Both the position numbers and the translations under genes were made by a program. This document shows positions 4,091 through 19,042 of a DNA stretch of 64,000 bases, one piece after another. Position 1 is the stretch's first letter, and each line of letters starts with the position of its first letter. This stretch comes from Streptacidiphilus rugosus AM-16 (GTDB lineage Bacteria; Actinomycetota; Actinomycetes; Streptomycetales; Streptomycetaceae). The stretch is from the NCBI RefSeq assembly GCF_000744655.1, contig NZ_JQMJ01000004.1, positions 6,448,001 to 6,512,000 of the forward strand, written 5' to 3'. The notes under the pieces were generated by a model, which had not been told where the DNA came from, did no database searches, and saw nothing but the letters and a program-made list of their open reading frames with translations.

Positions 4091-4164
4091 TAGCGGGGAC
4101 AGGATTTGAACCTGCGACCTCTGGGTTATGAGCCCAGCGAGCTACCGAGCTGCTCCACCCCGCG
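4091..4164 (-). tRNA. Initiator tRNA-fMet (CAU), copy 1
   Basis: A 74-base minus-strand cloverleaf with anticodon loop CTCATAA (anticodon CAU). Two marks identify the initiator rather than the elongator: the first base pair of the acceptor stem is mismatched (C1 opposite U72), and the anticodon stem carries three consecutive G:C pairs (GGG/CCC). The T loop TTCAAAT and D loop are canonical. A second copy lies at 4311-4384 with identical core sequence. No CCA is encoded. Confidence 0.95.
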
Positions 4165-4310: not shown

Positions 4311-4384
4311 TAGCGGGGACAGGATTTGAACCTGCGACCTCTGGGTTATGAGCCCAGCGAGCTACCGAGCTGCTCCACCCCGCG
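4311..4384 (-). tRNA. Initiator tRNA-fMet (CAU), copy 2
   Basis: Same 74-base initiator tRNA as copy 1 with the same C1/U72 mismatch, GGG/CCC anticodon stem and CAU anticodon. It lies only 73 bp downstream of the stop codon of the truncated UPF0182 gene on the same strand. Its own leader has TATGGT as a likely -10; the -35 is unclear. Confidence 0.95.
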
Positions 4385-13646: not shown

Positions 13647-13694
13647 GCCGACCGGCAGATGGACCAACCGCGCCAGACGAGCAGGGAGGCATCC

Positions 13695-15038
13695 GTGAGC
13701 GATCTTCCACGGAAGGCAGTGACCCGCACGGCCAAACTCGCTGCCCTCCCGCTGGGGATAGCCGGACGCGCCACCCTGGGCCTGGGCAAGCGGATCGGCG
13801 GTCGGCCCGCCGACGTCGTCGCCGCCGAGCTCCAGCAGCGGACCGCGGACCAGCTGTTCAAGGTGCTCGGTGAACTCAAGGGCGGGGCCATGAAGTTCGG
13901 CCAGGCGCTCTCGGTCTTCGAGGCCGCGCTGCCCGAGGAGGTGGCCGGCCCCTACCGAGCGGCGCTGACGAAGCTTCAGGAGGCCGCGCCGCCGATGCCG
14001 GCCGCCTCGGTCCACAGCGTGCTGACCGAACGGCTCGGCCCCGACTGGCGCGGGCTGTTCACCACCTTCGAGGACAAGCCGGCTGCCGCGGCGTCCATCG
14101 GTCAGGTGCACCGCGCCGTCTGGCACGACGGCCGGGAGGTCGCCGTCAAGGTGCAGTACCCGGGCGCGGGTGACGCTCTGCTCTCGGACCTGAACCAGCT
14201 CGGCCGGGTCGCCCGGCTGATCGGTCCGCTGATTCCCGGCCTGGACGTCAAGCCGCTCATCGCCGAGCTGCGGAACCGGGTCACCGAGGAGTTGGACTAC
14301 GCGCTGGAGGCCCAGTCCCAGACGGTCCACGCCGCGGAGTTCGCCGAGGACCCGGAGATCCGCGTCCCGGCCGTGGTCCACCAGGCCGAGCAGGTGCTGG
14401 TGACCGAGTGGATGGACGGCATCCCGCTCTCCGAGGTGATCGCCTCGGGCAGCACCGAGCAGCGGGACCGCGCCGGTCAGCTGCTGGCCCGGTTCCTTTT
14501 CGCCGCTCCCGCCCGCACCGGCCTGCTCCACGCCGACCCGCACCCGGGCAACTTCCGGCTGCTGGTGGACGAGGGCCCCGCGGAGGGCTGGCAGCTGGGC
14601 GTGCTCGACTTCGGCACGGTGGACCGCCTGCCCGAGGGCCTGCCCACGCCGATCGGCAACGCCCTGCGCATGGCGTTGGCCGGGGACGCGGCCGGGGTGC
14701 TCGAAATGCTGCGGCAGGAGGGCTTCGTCAAGCCGAGCATCGATCTCGACCCCGACGCGGTGCTGGACTACGTGCTGCCGATCATCGAGCCCGCCGCGGT
14801 GCCGGAGTTCCGCTTCACCCGCGCCTGGATGCGGGCCCAGGCCGCCAGAGTGGGCGATCCGCGCTCGCCCGCCTACGCGCTGGGGCGCCAGCTCAACCTG
14901 CCGCCGTCGTACCTGCTGATCCACAGGGTCACCCTCAGCACCATCGGGGTGCTGTGCCAGCTCGACGCCACCGCCTCCTTCCGCGACGAGCTGCTCGCCT
15001 GGCTGCCCGGCTTCGCGGACGAGGAGGTCGTCGCGTAA
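13695..15038 (+). CDS. ABC1/AarF-family atypical kinase
   Basis: 447 residues from GTG 13695 with GGGAGG five to seven bases upstream. All UbiB/ABC1 signatures are present: KxGQ motif in GGAMKFGQALS, the alanine-rich loop AAAASIGQVHRA, catalytic Lys in VAVKVQYPG, ExD region TEELDYALEAQ, HADPHPGN and DFG in VLDFGTVDRLP. Family members act in quinone or lipid metabolism and have ATPase rather than protein kinase activity. No membrane segment is clear here. Co-directional with the ThiF-like gene and ended by the hairpin at 15067-15100. Confidence 0.93.
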   Translation: MSDLPRKAVTRTAKLAALPLGIAGRATLGLGKRIGGRPADVVAAELQQRTADQLFKVLGELKGGAMKFGQALSVFEAALPEEVAGPYRAALTKLQEAAPPMPAASVHSVLTERLGPDWRGLFTTFEDKPAAAASIGQVHRAVWHDGREVAVKVQYPGAGDALLSDLNQLGRVARLIGPLIPGLDVKPLIAELRNRVTEELDYALEAQSQTVHAAEFAEDPEIRVPAVVHQAEQVLVTEWMDGIPLSEVIASGSTEQRDRAGQLLARFLFAAPARTGLLHADPHPGNFRLLVDEGPAEGWQLGVLDFGTVDRLPEGLPTPIGNALRMALAGDAAGVLEMLRQEGFVKPSIDLDPDAVLDYVLPIIEPAAVPEFRFTRAWMRAQAARVGDPRSPAYALGRQLNLPPSYLLIHRVTLSTIGVLCQLDATASFRDELLAWLPGFADEEVVA

Positions 15039-15164: not shown

Positions 15165-15494
15165 TCAGAGGACGACGCTGGCGAGGGCGCGCCGGGCGCG
15201 CAGCGAGGCGCGCTCGGCCCTGCGCCTCAACTGGACGGCGCGCACCAATCGTTCGCGCTCGGCCTCCTGCAAACGCTCTTGCATGTGGACACGGGCCAGG
15301 GCTTCGGGCATGAGTTGCATGGTGAGGGTCCTGTTCTGGGTGTTCTCGTGGCGGGGGGAGGTGCTGGGACGTGCCTCGGCGGGACGGTTCATCGAAGGGA
15401 CCTGCTTGTCGGTGGTCGGGGTGGGACGGATGCGTGTGATGGCGGGATCGGCGATCTCGCGGATGGAGCTGCGCAGTGCGCCTGCGGCGGTCAC
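15165..15494 (-). CDS. Small basic protein coupled to wblC
   Basis: 109 residues from GTG 15494, which overlaps the wblC stop by four bases and has GAGGT six bases upstream, arguing for translational coupling. An alternative start, ATG 15320 with AGGACC upstream, gives only the conserved 51-residue C-terminal part (MQLMPEALARVHMQERLQEA and onward). That part is an Arg/Glu-rich amphipathic helix, ALARVHMQERLQEAERERLV then RRRAERASLRARRALASVV. The upstream half is disordered. Comparable short proteins follow wblC in other streptomycetes to my knowledge. Function unknown; co-expression with WblC suggests a stress role. Confidence 0.65.
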   Translation of the reverse strand: MTAAGALRSSIREIADPAITRIRPTPTTDKQVPSMNRPAEARPSTSPRHENTQNRTLTMQLMPEALARVHMQERLQEAERERLVRAVQLRRRAERASLRARRALASVVL

Positions 15495-15766
15495 GCCATG
15501 ACCTCGGTCTTGCGCGGACGGCCACGGGGCCGCTTCCGGGCGACGACGACACCCTGGACGAAGAGCTCGCCACCCCAGACACCCCAGGGCTCGCGGCGCT
15601 CGAGGGCGCCGGTCAGGCAGGCGGCCTTCACCGGGCAGGTCCCGCAGAGGGACTTGGCGTACTCGACGTCGGCCGGGGTCTCGGCGAAGAAGACCTCGGG
15701 GTCGAGCGAACGGCAGGGGATCGGGGCGCCGAGAGTCTCGGCCTCCTCGAACGCGGTGAGCTGCAT
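15491..15766 (-). CDS. wblC: WhiB7-type transcriptional regulator WblC
   Basis: 91 residues from ATG 15766 with a perfect GGAGG eight bases upstream; the frame is open to 15928 but that extension is leader. The four [4Fe-4S] cysteines are Cys18, Cys41, Cys44 and Cys50 (CRS, CGTCPVKAAC). The WhiB turn reads EPWGVWGGE (59-67), and the WhiB7-specific AT-hook RPRGRPRK closes the protein (79-86). WhiB7/WblC binds the housekeeping sigma factor and activates intrinsic resistance to ribosome-targeting antibiotics. The gene is preceded by a long leader with an upstream ORF and terminator, and precedes a coupled small gene. Identification is very secure. Confidence 0.96.
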   Translation of the reverse strand: MQLTAFEEAETLGAPIPCRSLDPEVFFAETPADVEYAKSLCGTCPVKAACLTGALERREPWGVWGGELFVQGVVVARKRPRGRPRKTEVMA

Positions 15767-15999
15767 CAGGGATACCTCCGGGGGGTGGGAGTCGTCGAAG
15801 TGGTCGGCGTTGGGTGCGGACGGGGCGTGTGGGCTGGTCACCGGTGACACGTTCGCGTCGTCTTCCTGTTTGAGTGGATGTTCTCTGTCTGACTGTCTGT
15901 TCTGCCTGCGGCTGTTCTGCCTGGGCAAACAGAAGGGCCGCGGATCCCGATTCGGGAATCCGCGGCCCTGGAAGCGCCGACCTGATGCAGGCTCAGGTT
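15767..15999 (-). promoter_or_regulatory. wblC transcription-attenuator leader
   Basis: Minus-strand order after the upstream ORF: hairpin ACCTGA-N7-TCAGGT (15981-15999), whose stem contains the upstream ORF stop codon TGA; then a large terminator hairpin (15935-15970); then about 165 bases of leader before wblC, including the palindrome GTCACCGGTGAC (15837-15848). WhiB7/WblC genes are known to be attenuated: translation of an upstream ORF permits the terminator, and ribosome stalling by antibiotics favours an alternative fold. The layout here fits that model exactly; the alternative pairing has not been computed. Confidence 0.8.
15935..15970 (-). terminator. Attenuator terminator of wblC leader
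   Basis: On the minus strand AGGGCCGCGGAT / ATCCGCGGCCCT forms an almost perfect stem closing over CCCGA/TCGGG, followed by TTCTGTTTG. It lies between the upstream ORF and wblC, so it must be bypassed for wblC transcription. Confidence 0.85.
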
Positions 16000-16370
16000 C
16001 GCTCTATCCATGGGTGTGGGCCGCGGAAGGCCCTCATCGTGATCGCCGTTTCGGCGACCTTCTGCTGCGACTGGTGCTGGAGGGACGCGTGGTGTCCCGT
16101 GGAGCCGGCTCCGGCACCCGCCGCGTCGCCATAACCGCCCGCAGGGGCGGCGATGGGCGCTACGGATGCCGACAGCGGTCGCTCAATGCGACGTGCATCC
16201 CACGCGCCGAGGCCATTGCTGGCAACGACGGAGGCGACGCGCACCAGAGCGGTGTCGACACCGGCACCGGCAAAGGACAGACCACGGGCGTCGAAGGTCT
16301 CGACACACGGCATGCCGAAGTCGGCGGCGGTCAGCGTCCGGCCAGTCAGTTTGGTGATCATGGTCTTCAC
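15993..16370 (-). CDS. wblC leader upstream ORF
   Basis: 125 codons from GTG 16370 with GGGAGG eight bases upstream, one of the best ribosome sites in the window, ending in PHPWIERT* inside the antiterminator hairpin. The peptide (MKTMITKLTGRTLTAADFGM at its start) has no recognised domain and becomes Ala/Gly-rich in the middle. Codon bias is weaker than in neighbouring genes. Its position directly before the terminator of the WblC leader indicates a regulatory upstream ORF whose translation senses ribosome inhibition, not an enzyme. A shorter initiation at internal ATGs (16361, 16028) is possible. Confidence 0.7.
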   Translation of the reverse strand: MKTMITKLTGRTLTAADFGMPCVETFDARGLSFAGAGVDTALVRVASVVASNGLGAWDARRIERPLSASVAPIAAPAGGYGDAAGAGAGSTGHHASLQHQSQQKVAETAITMRAFRGPHPWIERT

Positions 16371-16574
16371 AATGTCCGCCTCCCTTCGGCGTGCTCGGGG
16401 TCCGCTTGTTCAGCGGGCCCGCTGGTGGTCACTAGGTCAGTCAATCTTGGCAGTACAACCCGGGGGCTGTACAGGTGCAGCAGTGACGCCCGCTACAGGT
16501 GGGACCTGAGTGGGCTCGATCTCGTTTCCTCGACCGTGCTCGCACGCTAGTAGGGTCCGCACTGCGGGCGCAAA

Positions 16575-18878
16575 CTATTTTTCCGGCGAGTCTTCGGACG
16601 AGTTCACGAAGGCGCCGTTCTCGTCCGACAGGTCCGAGATGTCCCCCTGCCCGAGCTGCGCGGACGACCCGAACGACTCGAGCGATCCGGACGGCGAATC
16701 GACTCCCCCGCACAACGACAGCACGGTCTCGCCGTACTTGTCCAGCTTCGCGCGACCCACTCCGGAGATCTGGCCGAGTTCCGCCAGCGAGCCGGGAAGC
16801 TGTTCCGCGATGGCGAGCAACGTGGCGTCGGTGAAGACGCAGTAGCCCGGCAGGCCCTGCTCCTTCGCCATCCGGCCGCGCCAGTCGCGCAGCCGCTCGA
16901 ACAGCGCCTCGTCGAGGTTGGACGGGCAGTCGTCGCAGCGGCGGAGCTTGCGCTCGACCGCCTCGGTGAGCACGCGCCCGCAGACCCGGCACTTCAGCGG
17001 CGCCTTCGAGCGCGCGGCACGGCCCTCGCGCCCGGCTGCACCCGCGGCGCCCGCGGCGCGTCCGGCGCCCCGGCCGCCGCGGGCGGCCGAGCCCGGACGC
17101 AGCCCGTCCAGGAAGCGGGAGGGGTTCCGGGAGGCGCGGCCACCGGGCGATCGGGCCAGCGCCCAGGACAGGCCGAGGTGCTCCCGCGCCCGGGTCACCC
17201 CGACGTAGAGCAGCCGGCGCTCCTCCTCCACCTGTTCGTCGGTCTTGGCGTAGGTGATCGGCATCATGCCCTCGGTCAGGCCGACCAGGAACACGGCGTC
17301 CCACTCCAGGCCCTTGGCCGAGTGGAGGGAGGCGAGGGTCACGCCCTCGACCGCAGGGGCGTGCTGAGCCGCCGCGCGGGCGTCGAGCTCGGCGACGTAG
17401 GCCGCCAGGCCGGCCGGCTGCCCCGCCGCCTGCTGGGCGGACTCGAAGTCCTCGGCGAGGCGGACCAACGCGGCCAGCGACTCCCAGCGCTCGCGCACCG
17501 CGCCCGAGCCGGCCGGGGGCTGTGGAGAGAAGCCGCGCGTGGAGAGCACGGCGCGGACCTGCTCGGCCAGGCGTTCCGGGGCGTCCTCCAGCAGCGGGTC
17601 GACCGGGCCGCCGCCCGCCCTGGCCGCACCGCGGAGCAGCATGCCGGCCTCGCGGACCTCTGGGCGCTCGAAGAAGCGCTCGGCGCCGCGCAGCTGGTAG
17701 GCGATGCCCTGGTCGGCCAGGGCCTGCTCGTAGACCTCGGACTGCGCGTTGACCCGGAACAGCACGGCGATCTCGCTGGCCCGCACGCCCGCGTCGAGCA
17801 GCGCGCGGATCCGCTTGGCCGTGCCCTCCGCCTCGGCCGGCTCGTCCGGGTACTCCGTGTACACCGGCTCGGGGCCCGGCTCGCGCTGCGAGACGAGCTC
17901 CAGGCGGTGCTGGGCGGCCTGGCCGCGCGCCTGCGCGAGCAGGCCGTTGGCCAGGTGGACGACCTGCGGCGTGGACCGGTAGTCGCGGACCAGCTTCACC
18001 ACCGTGGCGTCCGGGTGCTTGGCACGGAAGCCGAGCAGGTACTCCGGCGTGGCGCCGGTGAAGGAGTAGATCGTCTGGCTGGCGTCGCCGACCACGCAGA
18101 GGCTGGAGCGCGGGCCGAGCCAGAGGTCGAGCAGGCGTTGCTGGAGCGGGGAGACGTCCTGGTACTCGTCGACGACGAAGTGCTGGTACTGGGCCCTGAC
18201 CTGTTCGGCGACCTCGGGCCGCTCGTCCAGCACACCGACGGCGAGCAGCAGCACGTCCTCGAAGTCGATGACCCCGCGGTCGCGCTTGAGCTCCTCGTAG
18301 ACCTTGTAGACCTGCCGGATCTCGGCCGGGTCGCGCGGCGTCTCGCGCCCGGCCTTGATCGCGGCGGCCGGGTAGTCCTCGGGCACGGTCTGGGTGACCT
18401 TGGCCCACTCGATCTCGCCGGTCAGGTCGCGCAGCTCGGTGCGCTCGAGCCGGAGCCTGCAGCGGCCGGCCGCCTCGGCGACCAACTGCACCTTGCGCTC
18501 CAGCAGGCGGGGCAGCTCACCGCCGACCACCCGCGGCCAGAAGAACTGGAGCTGGCGCAGCGCGGCGGCGTGGAACGTGCGCGCCTGCACCCCCTCGACG
18601 CCCAGCCCCCGCAGCCGGCCGCGCATCTCTCCCGCGGCTCGTGCGGTGAAGGTCACGGCGAGCACCCGCTGCGGCTGCATCACGCCGCTGCGGACGCCGT
18701 AGGCGATCCTGTGCGTGATCGCCCGGGTCTTGCCCGTGCCGGCGCCCGCGAGGACGCAGACAGGGCCCTGCAGCGCCGTGGCGACGGCCCGTTGCTCAGG
18801 GTCGAGCCCGGCGAGCACGGCTTCGGCGTCACGAGGTGCGGTCGTGAAGGGCACTGCGCCCGGAAGCTCTACCTGCAT
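16575..18878 (-). CDS. uvrD2: ATP-dependent DNA helicase UvrD2
   Basis: 767 residues from ATG 18878 (AGAGG nine bases upstream); the longer frame to 19028 reads through the mycoredoxin promoter and is rejected. Superfamily-1A motifs are complete: Walker A AGAGTGKT (43-50), VDEYQDVSPLQ, VVGDASQTIYSF and GLEWDAVFLVG. The C-terminal region carries a four-cysteine zinc module (CRVCG, CDDCP) and an HRDC domain (TDATLLAIAEQLPGSLAELG), the UvrD2 signature in actinobacteria. It is a 3'-to-5' helicase in DNA repair. Divergent from mrx1 and upstream of the WblC operon, separated from it by about 200 bp. Confidence 0.94.
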   Translation of the reverse strand: MQVELPGAVPFTTAPRDAEAVLAGLDPEQRAVATALQGPVCVLAGAGTGKTRAITHRIAYGVRSGVMQPQRVLAVTFTARAAGEMRGRLRGLGVEGVQARTFHAAALRQLQFFWPRVVGGELPRLLERKVQLVAEAAGRCRLRLERTELRDLTGEIEWAKVTQTVPEDYPAAAIKAGRETPRDPAEIRQVYKVYEELKRDRGVIDFEDVLLLAVGVLDERPEVAEQVRAQYQHFVVDEYQDVSPLQQRLLDLWLGPRSSLCVVGDASQTIYSFTGATPEYLLGFRAKHPDATVVKLVRDYRSTPQVVHLANGLLAQARGQAAQHRLELVSQREPGPEPVYTEYPDEPAEAEGTAKRIRALLDAGVRASEIAVLFRVNAQSEVYEQALADQGIAYQLRGAERFFERPEVREAGMLLRGAARAGGGPVDPLLEDAPERLAEQVRAVLSTRGFSPQPPAGSGAVRERWESLAALVRLAEDFESAQQAAGQPAGLAAYVAELDARAAAQHAPAVEGVTLASLHSAKGLEWDAVFLVGLTEGMMPITYAKTDEQVEEERRLLYVGVTRAREHLGLSWALARSPGGRASRNPSRFLDGLRPGSAARGGRGAGRAAGAAGAAGREGRAARSKAPLKCRVCGRVLTEAVERKLRRCDDCPSNLDEALFERLRDWRGRMAKEQGLPGYCVFTDATLLAIAEQLPGSLAELGQISGVGRAKLDKYGETVLSLCGGVDSPSGSLESFGSSAQLGQGDISDLSDENGAFVNSSEDSPEK

Positions 18879-18919
18879 GCCGTCCATCCTCTCAAGCCGC
18901 AGCGACAACCCGGGCCACG

Positions 18920-18928
18920 TTGTCCACA
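18920..18928 (+). promoter_or_regulatory. DnaA box upstream of mycoredoxin gene
   Basis: TTGTCCACA, the preferred Streptomyces DnaA box, in the divergent region between uvrD2 and mrx1, 24 bp upstream of the SigR -35. A single box may be coincidental. Confidence 0.35.
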
Positions 18929-18951
18929 GGGGCGGTGTGCTGATACGACCG

Positions 18952-18979
18952 GGGAATGCCGTCGCCCCGCCGCTACGTT
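18952..18979 (+). promoter_or_regulatory. SigR-type promoter of mrx1
   Basis: GGGAAT (18952-18957), 18-bp spacer, CGTT (18976-18979): an exact match to the SigR thiol-stress consensus. It lies 63 bp before the mycoredoxin start, a gene known to belong to the SigR regulon. Confidence 0.85.
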
Positions 18980-19042
18980 GGGCGTACTGGCAGCCAGACA
19001 CCGGGCACGGGACCACCGGGCACGACACGAGGAGCGATGCGG

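Follow-up and report, generated by a model that had tools for sequence, protein, structure and literature searches.

The minus strand of the window, by which we mean the whole 64-kb stretch of DNA analysed here, carries from about 16583 to 15491 a promoter-like element, a leader, a 125-codon upstream open reading frame (uORF), a stop-codon hairpin, an intrinsic terminator and wblC, in this order. The wblC gene (15491–15766, minus strand), the whiB7 orthologue, starts with an ATG at 15766, one base off the boundary of 15767 given in an earlier note on this DNA, and is preceded by a GGAGG Shine–Dalgarno (SD) motif at 15779–15775. Its frame, taken from an upstream GTG, matched the Pfam family Whib with an E-value of 4e-16, and the encoded protein was 82–95% identical to that of same-genus loci, with Streptacidiphilus melanogenes as the best match among the named members of the collection (94%); wblC was also the top match in its own genome. 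An in-frame GTG lies 28 codons upstream of the ATG (15850–15767, minus strand), and similarity in the proteins of relatives reaches into this stretch. On the far side of the gene, a 109-codon ORF (15165–15494, minus strand) begins with a GTG that shares bases with the stop codon of wblC (GTGA); it is possibly translationally coupled and gave no NCBIfam match. Convergent with wblC lies an ABC1/UbiB-like kinase gene (13659–15038, plus strand) with a possible macrolide link, scoring 469 bits against the NCBIfam macrolide-binding ATPase MABP-1, under the cut-off of 800. Upstream of the leader, the ORF list and domain search placed a uvrD-like helicase gene with an HRDC domain (16575–19028, minus strand); mycobacterial whiB7 has a uvrD neighbour as well. 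Since wblC sits directly after the leader, and based on the Pfam match, the identity and the uvrD-like neighbour, we assign it as the orthologue expected after a uORF attenuator of the whiB7/wblC type. In actinobacteria, WblC/WhiB7 is the driver of intrinsic resistance to drugs that target the ribosome. Rfam yielded no family at gathering score within the leader and, over the whole window, two tRNA matches only, namely two genes 146 bases apart (4091–4164 and 4311–4384, minus strand) of equal Rfam score and with identical sequence in the alignments shown, including the anticodon loop CUCAUAA.

The probable wblC promoter (16544–16583, minus strand) overlaps the uvrD-like gene at its stop codon and consists of GAAAAATAG followed by TTTGCG and of a TANNNT-type element (TAGCGT), the putative −35 and −10 regions. 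WblC-activated promoters carry GAAAWY 3 nt upstream of the −35 element, as given in the excerpts of PMC7157823; the window's promoter-like motif GAAAAATAGTTTGCG resembles this sequence, and the strict GAAAWY was unmatched in the window. The leader begins where the uvrD-like gene ends, and the start site of wblC is a predicted one, consistent with a scenario in which the terminator serves the uvrD-like gene and wblC is transcribed from a separate promoter after the terminator. We regard this scenario as scarcely credible, as 106 of the 107 leaders contain the motif A[AT]A[GT]TTTGC in the interval that separates the uvrD-like gene from the uORF, 130–260 nt ahead of the uORF start (the remaining one, L096, bearing a one-base variant), and as the antiterminator pairing described below is conserved. 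Also in line with this assessment, a simple sigma-70 scan of 15700–16700 returned zero sites, although the same scan missed the conserved promoter-like motif too.

The uORF (15993–16370, minus strand) comprises 125 codons from a GTG start at 16370 to a TGA stop at 15993. Its SD site, AAGGGAGG at 16379–16386 (minus strand), contains GGGAGG at 16384–16379, 8 nt ahead of the GTG, confirming the strong ribosome site that had been proposed, and translation yielded the proposed peptide end PHPWIERT. For comparison we used WblC matches obtained by tblastn in 124 of 132 loci, of which 107, including the window itself (L009), were kept after dropping matches below 120 bits and duplicates; they represent the best-scoring relatives, not a random sample. 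Split by locus number, the set comprises the window's genus group (14 loci, L009–L022), a Kitasatospora group (21 loci within L034–L060, some bearing the name Streptomyces) and a Streptomyces group (72 loci, L061–L132, with two Streptantibioticus and one Actinacidiphila). All 107 leaders of these Streptacidiphilus, Kitasatospora and Streptomyces groups showed an SD-led uORF ending in TGA 24–30 nt before a GGGCCGCGGA...TCCGCGGCCC terminator, whose arm pattern was free of mismatches in 99 leaders and had a single one in eight. The SD match of five bases, present in all 107 leaders, was itself a search criterion, and in 100 of them it extended to six or seven bases. Further loci exhibited the same layout (32/32), three of them repeating known uORFs and thus leaving 29 new hold-out uORFs. 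Among the 17 best-scoring loci of other families, obtained from a search of 148 genomes of the class, 16 had an SD-led uORF of 59–134 codons before a GGCCGCGG terminator, with lengths counted from the top-ranked start, an uncertain choice at some of these loci; for L161 the scanner found no such uORF–terminator leader. The attenuation leader with a 125-codon uORF that had been predicted upstream of wblC is thus real, its layout being present throughout and its frame kept. The uORF had also been called unusually long, which does not hold, as the 107 leaders span 88–163 codons with a median of 110. The 124-codon frame remains open in 236 of 2000 dinucleotide shuffles. Length by itself therefore proves little, and the reality of the uORF rests on the conserved layout and frame.

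We analyzed the selection acting on the uORF by indels and substitutions. Pairwise indels within the uORF were multiples of three in 615 of 679 cases for the window's genus and in 1080 of 1306 for the Kitasatospora group, and in the spacer before wblC in 90 of 244 and 308 of 875, respectively; the test covers two of the three groups and its pairs are not independent. The overall dN/dS of the uORF was 0.88, 0.83 and 0.84 for the window's genus, the Kitasatospora group and the Streptomyces group (the latter value from 400 random pairs). In the same order of groups, the amino-terminal part exhibited values of 0.81, 0.80 and 1.00, the segment from ERP to GAG 0.76, 0.71 and 0.66, and the linker 2.11, 1.60 and 2.66, where synonymous change is low. 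Since indels keep the frame while dN/dS stays near neutral, the data indicate that the uORF is translated and that most of its peptide hardly matters. The conserved frame together with the strong SD site across the 107 leaders would also be expected of a functional small protein encoded before wblC by coincidence. Such a protein is extremely unlikely in view of the near-neutral amino-acid change, compared with a dN/dS of 0.14, 0.11 and 0.09 for WblC in the same three groups, of the wide range of uORF lengths, and of the peptide matching no Pfam or NCBIfam family at E-values up to 0.001. Selection rather seems to keep an open, translated frame and, as outlined below, RNA pairing more than a peptide, which argues for a general sensor of ribosome failure.

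The end of the uORF is embedded in RNA structure. The stop-codon hairpin (15980–15998, minus strand), formed by ACCTGA at 15998–15993 with TCAGGT at 15985–15980, encloses the uORF stop codon at 15995–15993, in agreement with its earlier placement within a hairpin; it is located at the tip of the antiterminator, with a mean pair probability of 0.71–0.76 (106 leaders). The intrinsic terminator (15924–15969, minus strand) consists of a stem-loop with a 15-pair stem at 15969–15934 and the tail TCTGTTTGCC, and lies 167 nt before wblC, matching the near-perfect terminator more than 160 bases away that had been described. It is the sole terminator-like site on the minus strand of 15700–16700, which has one weaker site on the plus strand, and a search of its own genome by the exact arm pattern revealed no second copy. 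The fold of 16060–15900 had a z-score of −5.89 against 200 shuffles. Folding had been put forward as a check for mutually exclusive hairpins, and it identified as the competing structure an antiterminator that the earlier note had not named. Based on folding of the growing chain and conserved pairing, the 5′ arm of the terminator doubles as the 3′ arm of this predicted antiterminator, whose 5′ arm lies within the uORF: the upper helix TCCGCGGCCC (16018–16027, minus strand), encoding F-R-G-P, pairs with 15968–15959, and the lower helix TGGA (16007–16010, minus strand) pairs with TCCA at 15972–15969. In most relatives the lower arm reads CCCTGGAG, the Pro-Trp codons. For RNA ends from 15962 to 15940 the lowest-energy fold has the uORF arm paired with the terminator 5′ arm, and from the RNA end 15936 on it is the terminator.

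Pairing of at least eight of the ten terminator-arm bases with the uORF was predicted for 105 of 107 leaders at a context of 60 nt and for 92 at 90 nt, as well as for 24 of the 29 hold-out leaders, the other five showing fewer than eight. For the complete leader without a ribosome, the terminator was favoured in 101 of 107 cases; in a shorter context, the lowest-energy fold lacked the terminator helix in five of the 107 leaders and three of the 29 hold-out leaders. Because the free full-length leader prefers the terminator, read-through must be kinetic, that is, decided during transcription. Individual pairs of the antiterminator are kept in 97–106 (upper helix) and 96–106 (lower helix) of 106 leaders (L096 omitted), through invariance or G–U exchange, and no double changes occurred among these leaders. 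The predicted antiterminator is thus backed by conservation and folding, not by covariation. A control with synonymously shuffled uORF ends did not discriminate, as on average 84 of 100 shuffled ends still paired with the terminator arm; the real energy was no better than that of the shuffles (median z of 0.04), and at only five of 107 loci did five or fewer of 100 shuffles reach it. We therefore dropped synonymous-codon shuffling as a proof of RNA-level selection on the antiterminator, its mutual exclusivity with the terminator being predicted by the folding itself.

Placing a modelled ribosome on codon −4 or −10, counted from the stop, lowered the number of leaders still pairing from 92 to 21 or 35 of 107, respectively, and at codon −20 the pairing persisted in 88 of 107. 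A ribosome on the stop codon itself blocks the antiterminator partly, with 60 of 107 leaders still pairing and the window keeping all ten bases. Taken together, the leader is very probably a ribosome-sensing transcription attenuator of wblC, whereby its parts, the exclusive predicted folds, the kept frame and the near-neutral peptide come from sequence and comparison, and the drug response as well as the WblC feedback would follow by analogy to published orthologues. A working ribosome would trail RNA polymerase through the uORF and cover roughly the final ten codons while the first arm of the terminator emerges, thereby barring the antiterminator, so that the terminator would fold and transcription would end before wblC. 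Antibiotics or starvation would hold ribosomes further upstream or off the uORF, leaving the F-R-G-P and P-W codons free to pair with the first arm of the terminator, upon which the polymerase would continue and WblC would be made and activate its own promoter. The leader would thereby represent the trigger of the WblC/WhiB7 resistance response. The earlier proposal that uncoupled leader translation releases wblC fits this anatomy as well as the whiB7/wblC mechanism in the published excerpts cited below; its second element, a pause of translation at the Pro-Trp step, found no support.

This pause bears on a further interpretation, in which the uORF encodes an arrest peptide with a Pro-Trp end stalling the ribosome in a drug-dependent manner, as the peptide end of ErmL-type leaders does. 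Pro-Trp does occur in 103 of 107 leaders, and in two groups constraint on the protein peaks over the last 14 codon columns, with a dN/dS of 0.59 (Kitasatospora) and 0.32 (Streptomyces), next to 0.79 in the window's genus. However, these columns hold the antiterminator, so that RNA pairing offers an alternative cause of the low dN/dS at the constrained end as aligned, and the Pro-Trp codons constitute one antiterminator arm, which is enough to explain their conservation; the peptide itself may also play a part at this end. In the four leaders with Pro-Gly instead, all from Streptacidiphilus relatives, the RNA CCCTGG is retained one base out of register, and five of the 29 hold-out uORFs, from two genera, have Ser-Trp. 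Both variants disfavour pausing as the cause of conservation. Considering also the overall dN/dS and the widely varying uORF C-termini of other families, we judge an arrest peptide very unlikely compared with the ribosome-sensing attenuator.

Besides its terminal part, the uORF contains an in-frame helix, termed H2, supported by covariation and pair probability (mean of 0.74). Its 5′ arm TCGGCATCCGT (16162–16172, minus strand) is located around the codon GCA 68 and its 3′ arm GCGGGTGCCGG (16111–16121, minus strand) around GGT 85. Each of the eight core pairs is kept in 96–107 of the 107 leaders, and three of them change on both sides: from G–C in 84 leaders to C–G in 12, from G–C in 74 to A–U in 20, and, at two synonymous positions, from A–U in 97 to G–C in six (Fisher p = 4e-7, relatedness ignored), where the six G–C loci may, judging by their names, be as few as three lineages. 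The mean run of H2 amounted to 8.15 pairs, whereas 316 random column pairs averaged 2.34 and reached 5.87 at most; at two of the 107 loci the helix has two to three pairs only. Swapped arms reached the cognate energy in none of 300 cases overall and none of 300 within the Streptomyces group, and in 56 and 37 of 300 in the two smaller groups. In the hold-out set, six to eight of the eight pairs were present in all 21 testable uORFs; the other eight of the 29 were outside the test, six having no ERPxxA and two no GAG-like partner, and two of these eight (L175 and L181) contain GACCGATGCC and GGCATCGGTC, which make up another helix with comparable spacing. A candidate helix H0 would connect codons 17–19 with the stretch ahead of the SD site, pairing GCCGAAG (16384–16390, minus strand), which overlaps the start of the SD site, with CTTCGGC (16314–16320, minus strand). 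It appears weaker than H2, with a mean pair probability of 0.51 over 106 leaders and 0.05 in the Kitasatospora group, and swapped arms reaching the cognate energy in none of 300 cases overall and in 29, 94 and 31 of 300 within groups. H1 (GGT 30 with GAG-CGA-CCG 63–65), for which the respective numbers were none of 300 overall and 1, 38 and 41 within the three groups, is a weak candidate.

Rare codons, defined as those with less than 10% usage among their synonyms in 25 long ORFs of the window, account on average for 21.8% of the 107 uORFs compared with 5.6% of wblC (107 loci), the values for the uvrD-like gene (102 loci) and the 25 reference ORFs being 10% and 6.7%, respectively. Of the rare codons, GCA 68 is part of H2, and codon 124 belongs to the stop hairpin in its extended form. 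AAA 7 (near 16352) and TAT 80 (near 16133) are conserved in 100 and 94 of 107 leaders, respectively, where no RNA helix accounting for them was found. It may be, with the balance about even, that the uORF is a dual-purpose RNA combining a near-free peptide with the covarying H2, perhaps H1 and H0, and a load of rare codons, in which case the leader would act as a timed sensor with several stages rather than as a plain two-state switch. Formation of the helices would be limited to RNA from which the ribosome is absent or on which it lags behind; there they might hold up RNA polymerase and let the ribosome catch up, protect the untranslated leader against Rho, or delay the ribosome and thus set the drug threshold. 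H2 provides a concrete element for study by synonymous changes.

Comparison with known systems places the leader among the uORF-dependent attenuators. In the excerpts of PMC11550727, PMC9618640 and PMC13393426, complete translation of the whiB7/wblC uORF favours the terminator and stalled translation the antiterminator, a mechanism also consistent with those of PMC7157823, PMC12421871, PMC13236596 and PMC4128351. The wblC attenuator of S. coelicolor (Lee, Lee and Roe 2022, Mol Microbiol 117:179), as described by citing papers, likewise has a uORF, a Rho-independent terminator, an antiterminator forming upon failed uORF translation and the wblC orthologue; it belongs to a different genus, and H2 and a near-neutral peptide are absent from these descriptions. 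More generally, the excerpted literature on whiB7/wblC leaders, within a scope of citing papers and not the primary description, did not refer to any helix within the uORF of wblC. The mycobacterial whiB7 leader (Dinan 2014, PMC4128351, in excerpt) has its uORF about 10 nt after an SD motif and then a terminator, with a start site about 350 nt before whiB7; the window's leader, likened to it by description and not by sequence, is longer at about 770 nt from the predicted start site. The are5sc and tiaA leaders of S. coelicolor share the antibiotic-sensing uORF, the terminator and the antiterminator, but in the excerpts of PMC12421871 their uORFs are very short (MLV and MRS, MVGDDDISG) and ribosomes stall on the start codon, whereas the window's leader could sense failure anywhere along most of its 125 codons. 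The ilvB1 amino-acid attenuator of M. tuberculosis (PMC13236596, in excerpt) resembles it in coupling terminator/antiterminator logic to a leader ORF; as far as inspection of the group consensus by eye goes, the window-type uORFs have no run of one regulatory codon in common between the groups. The leader is thus already explained in kind as an orthologue of the wblC attenuator, and what makes it of interest is the largely neutral peptide together with the in-frame helix that covaries.
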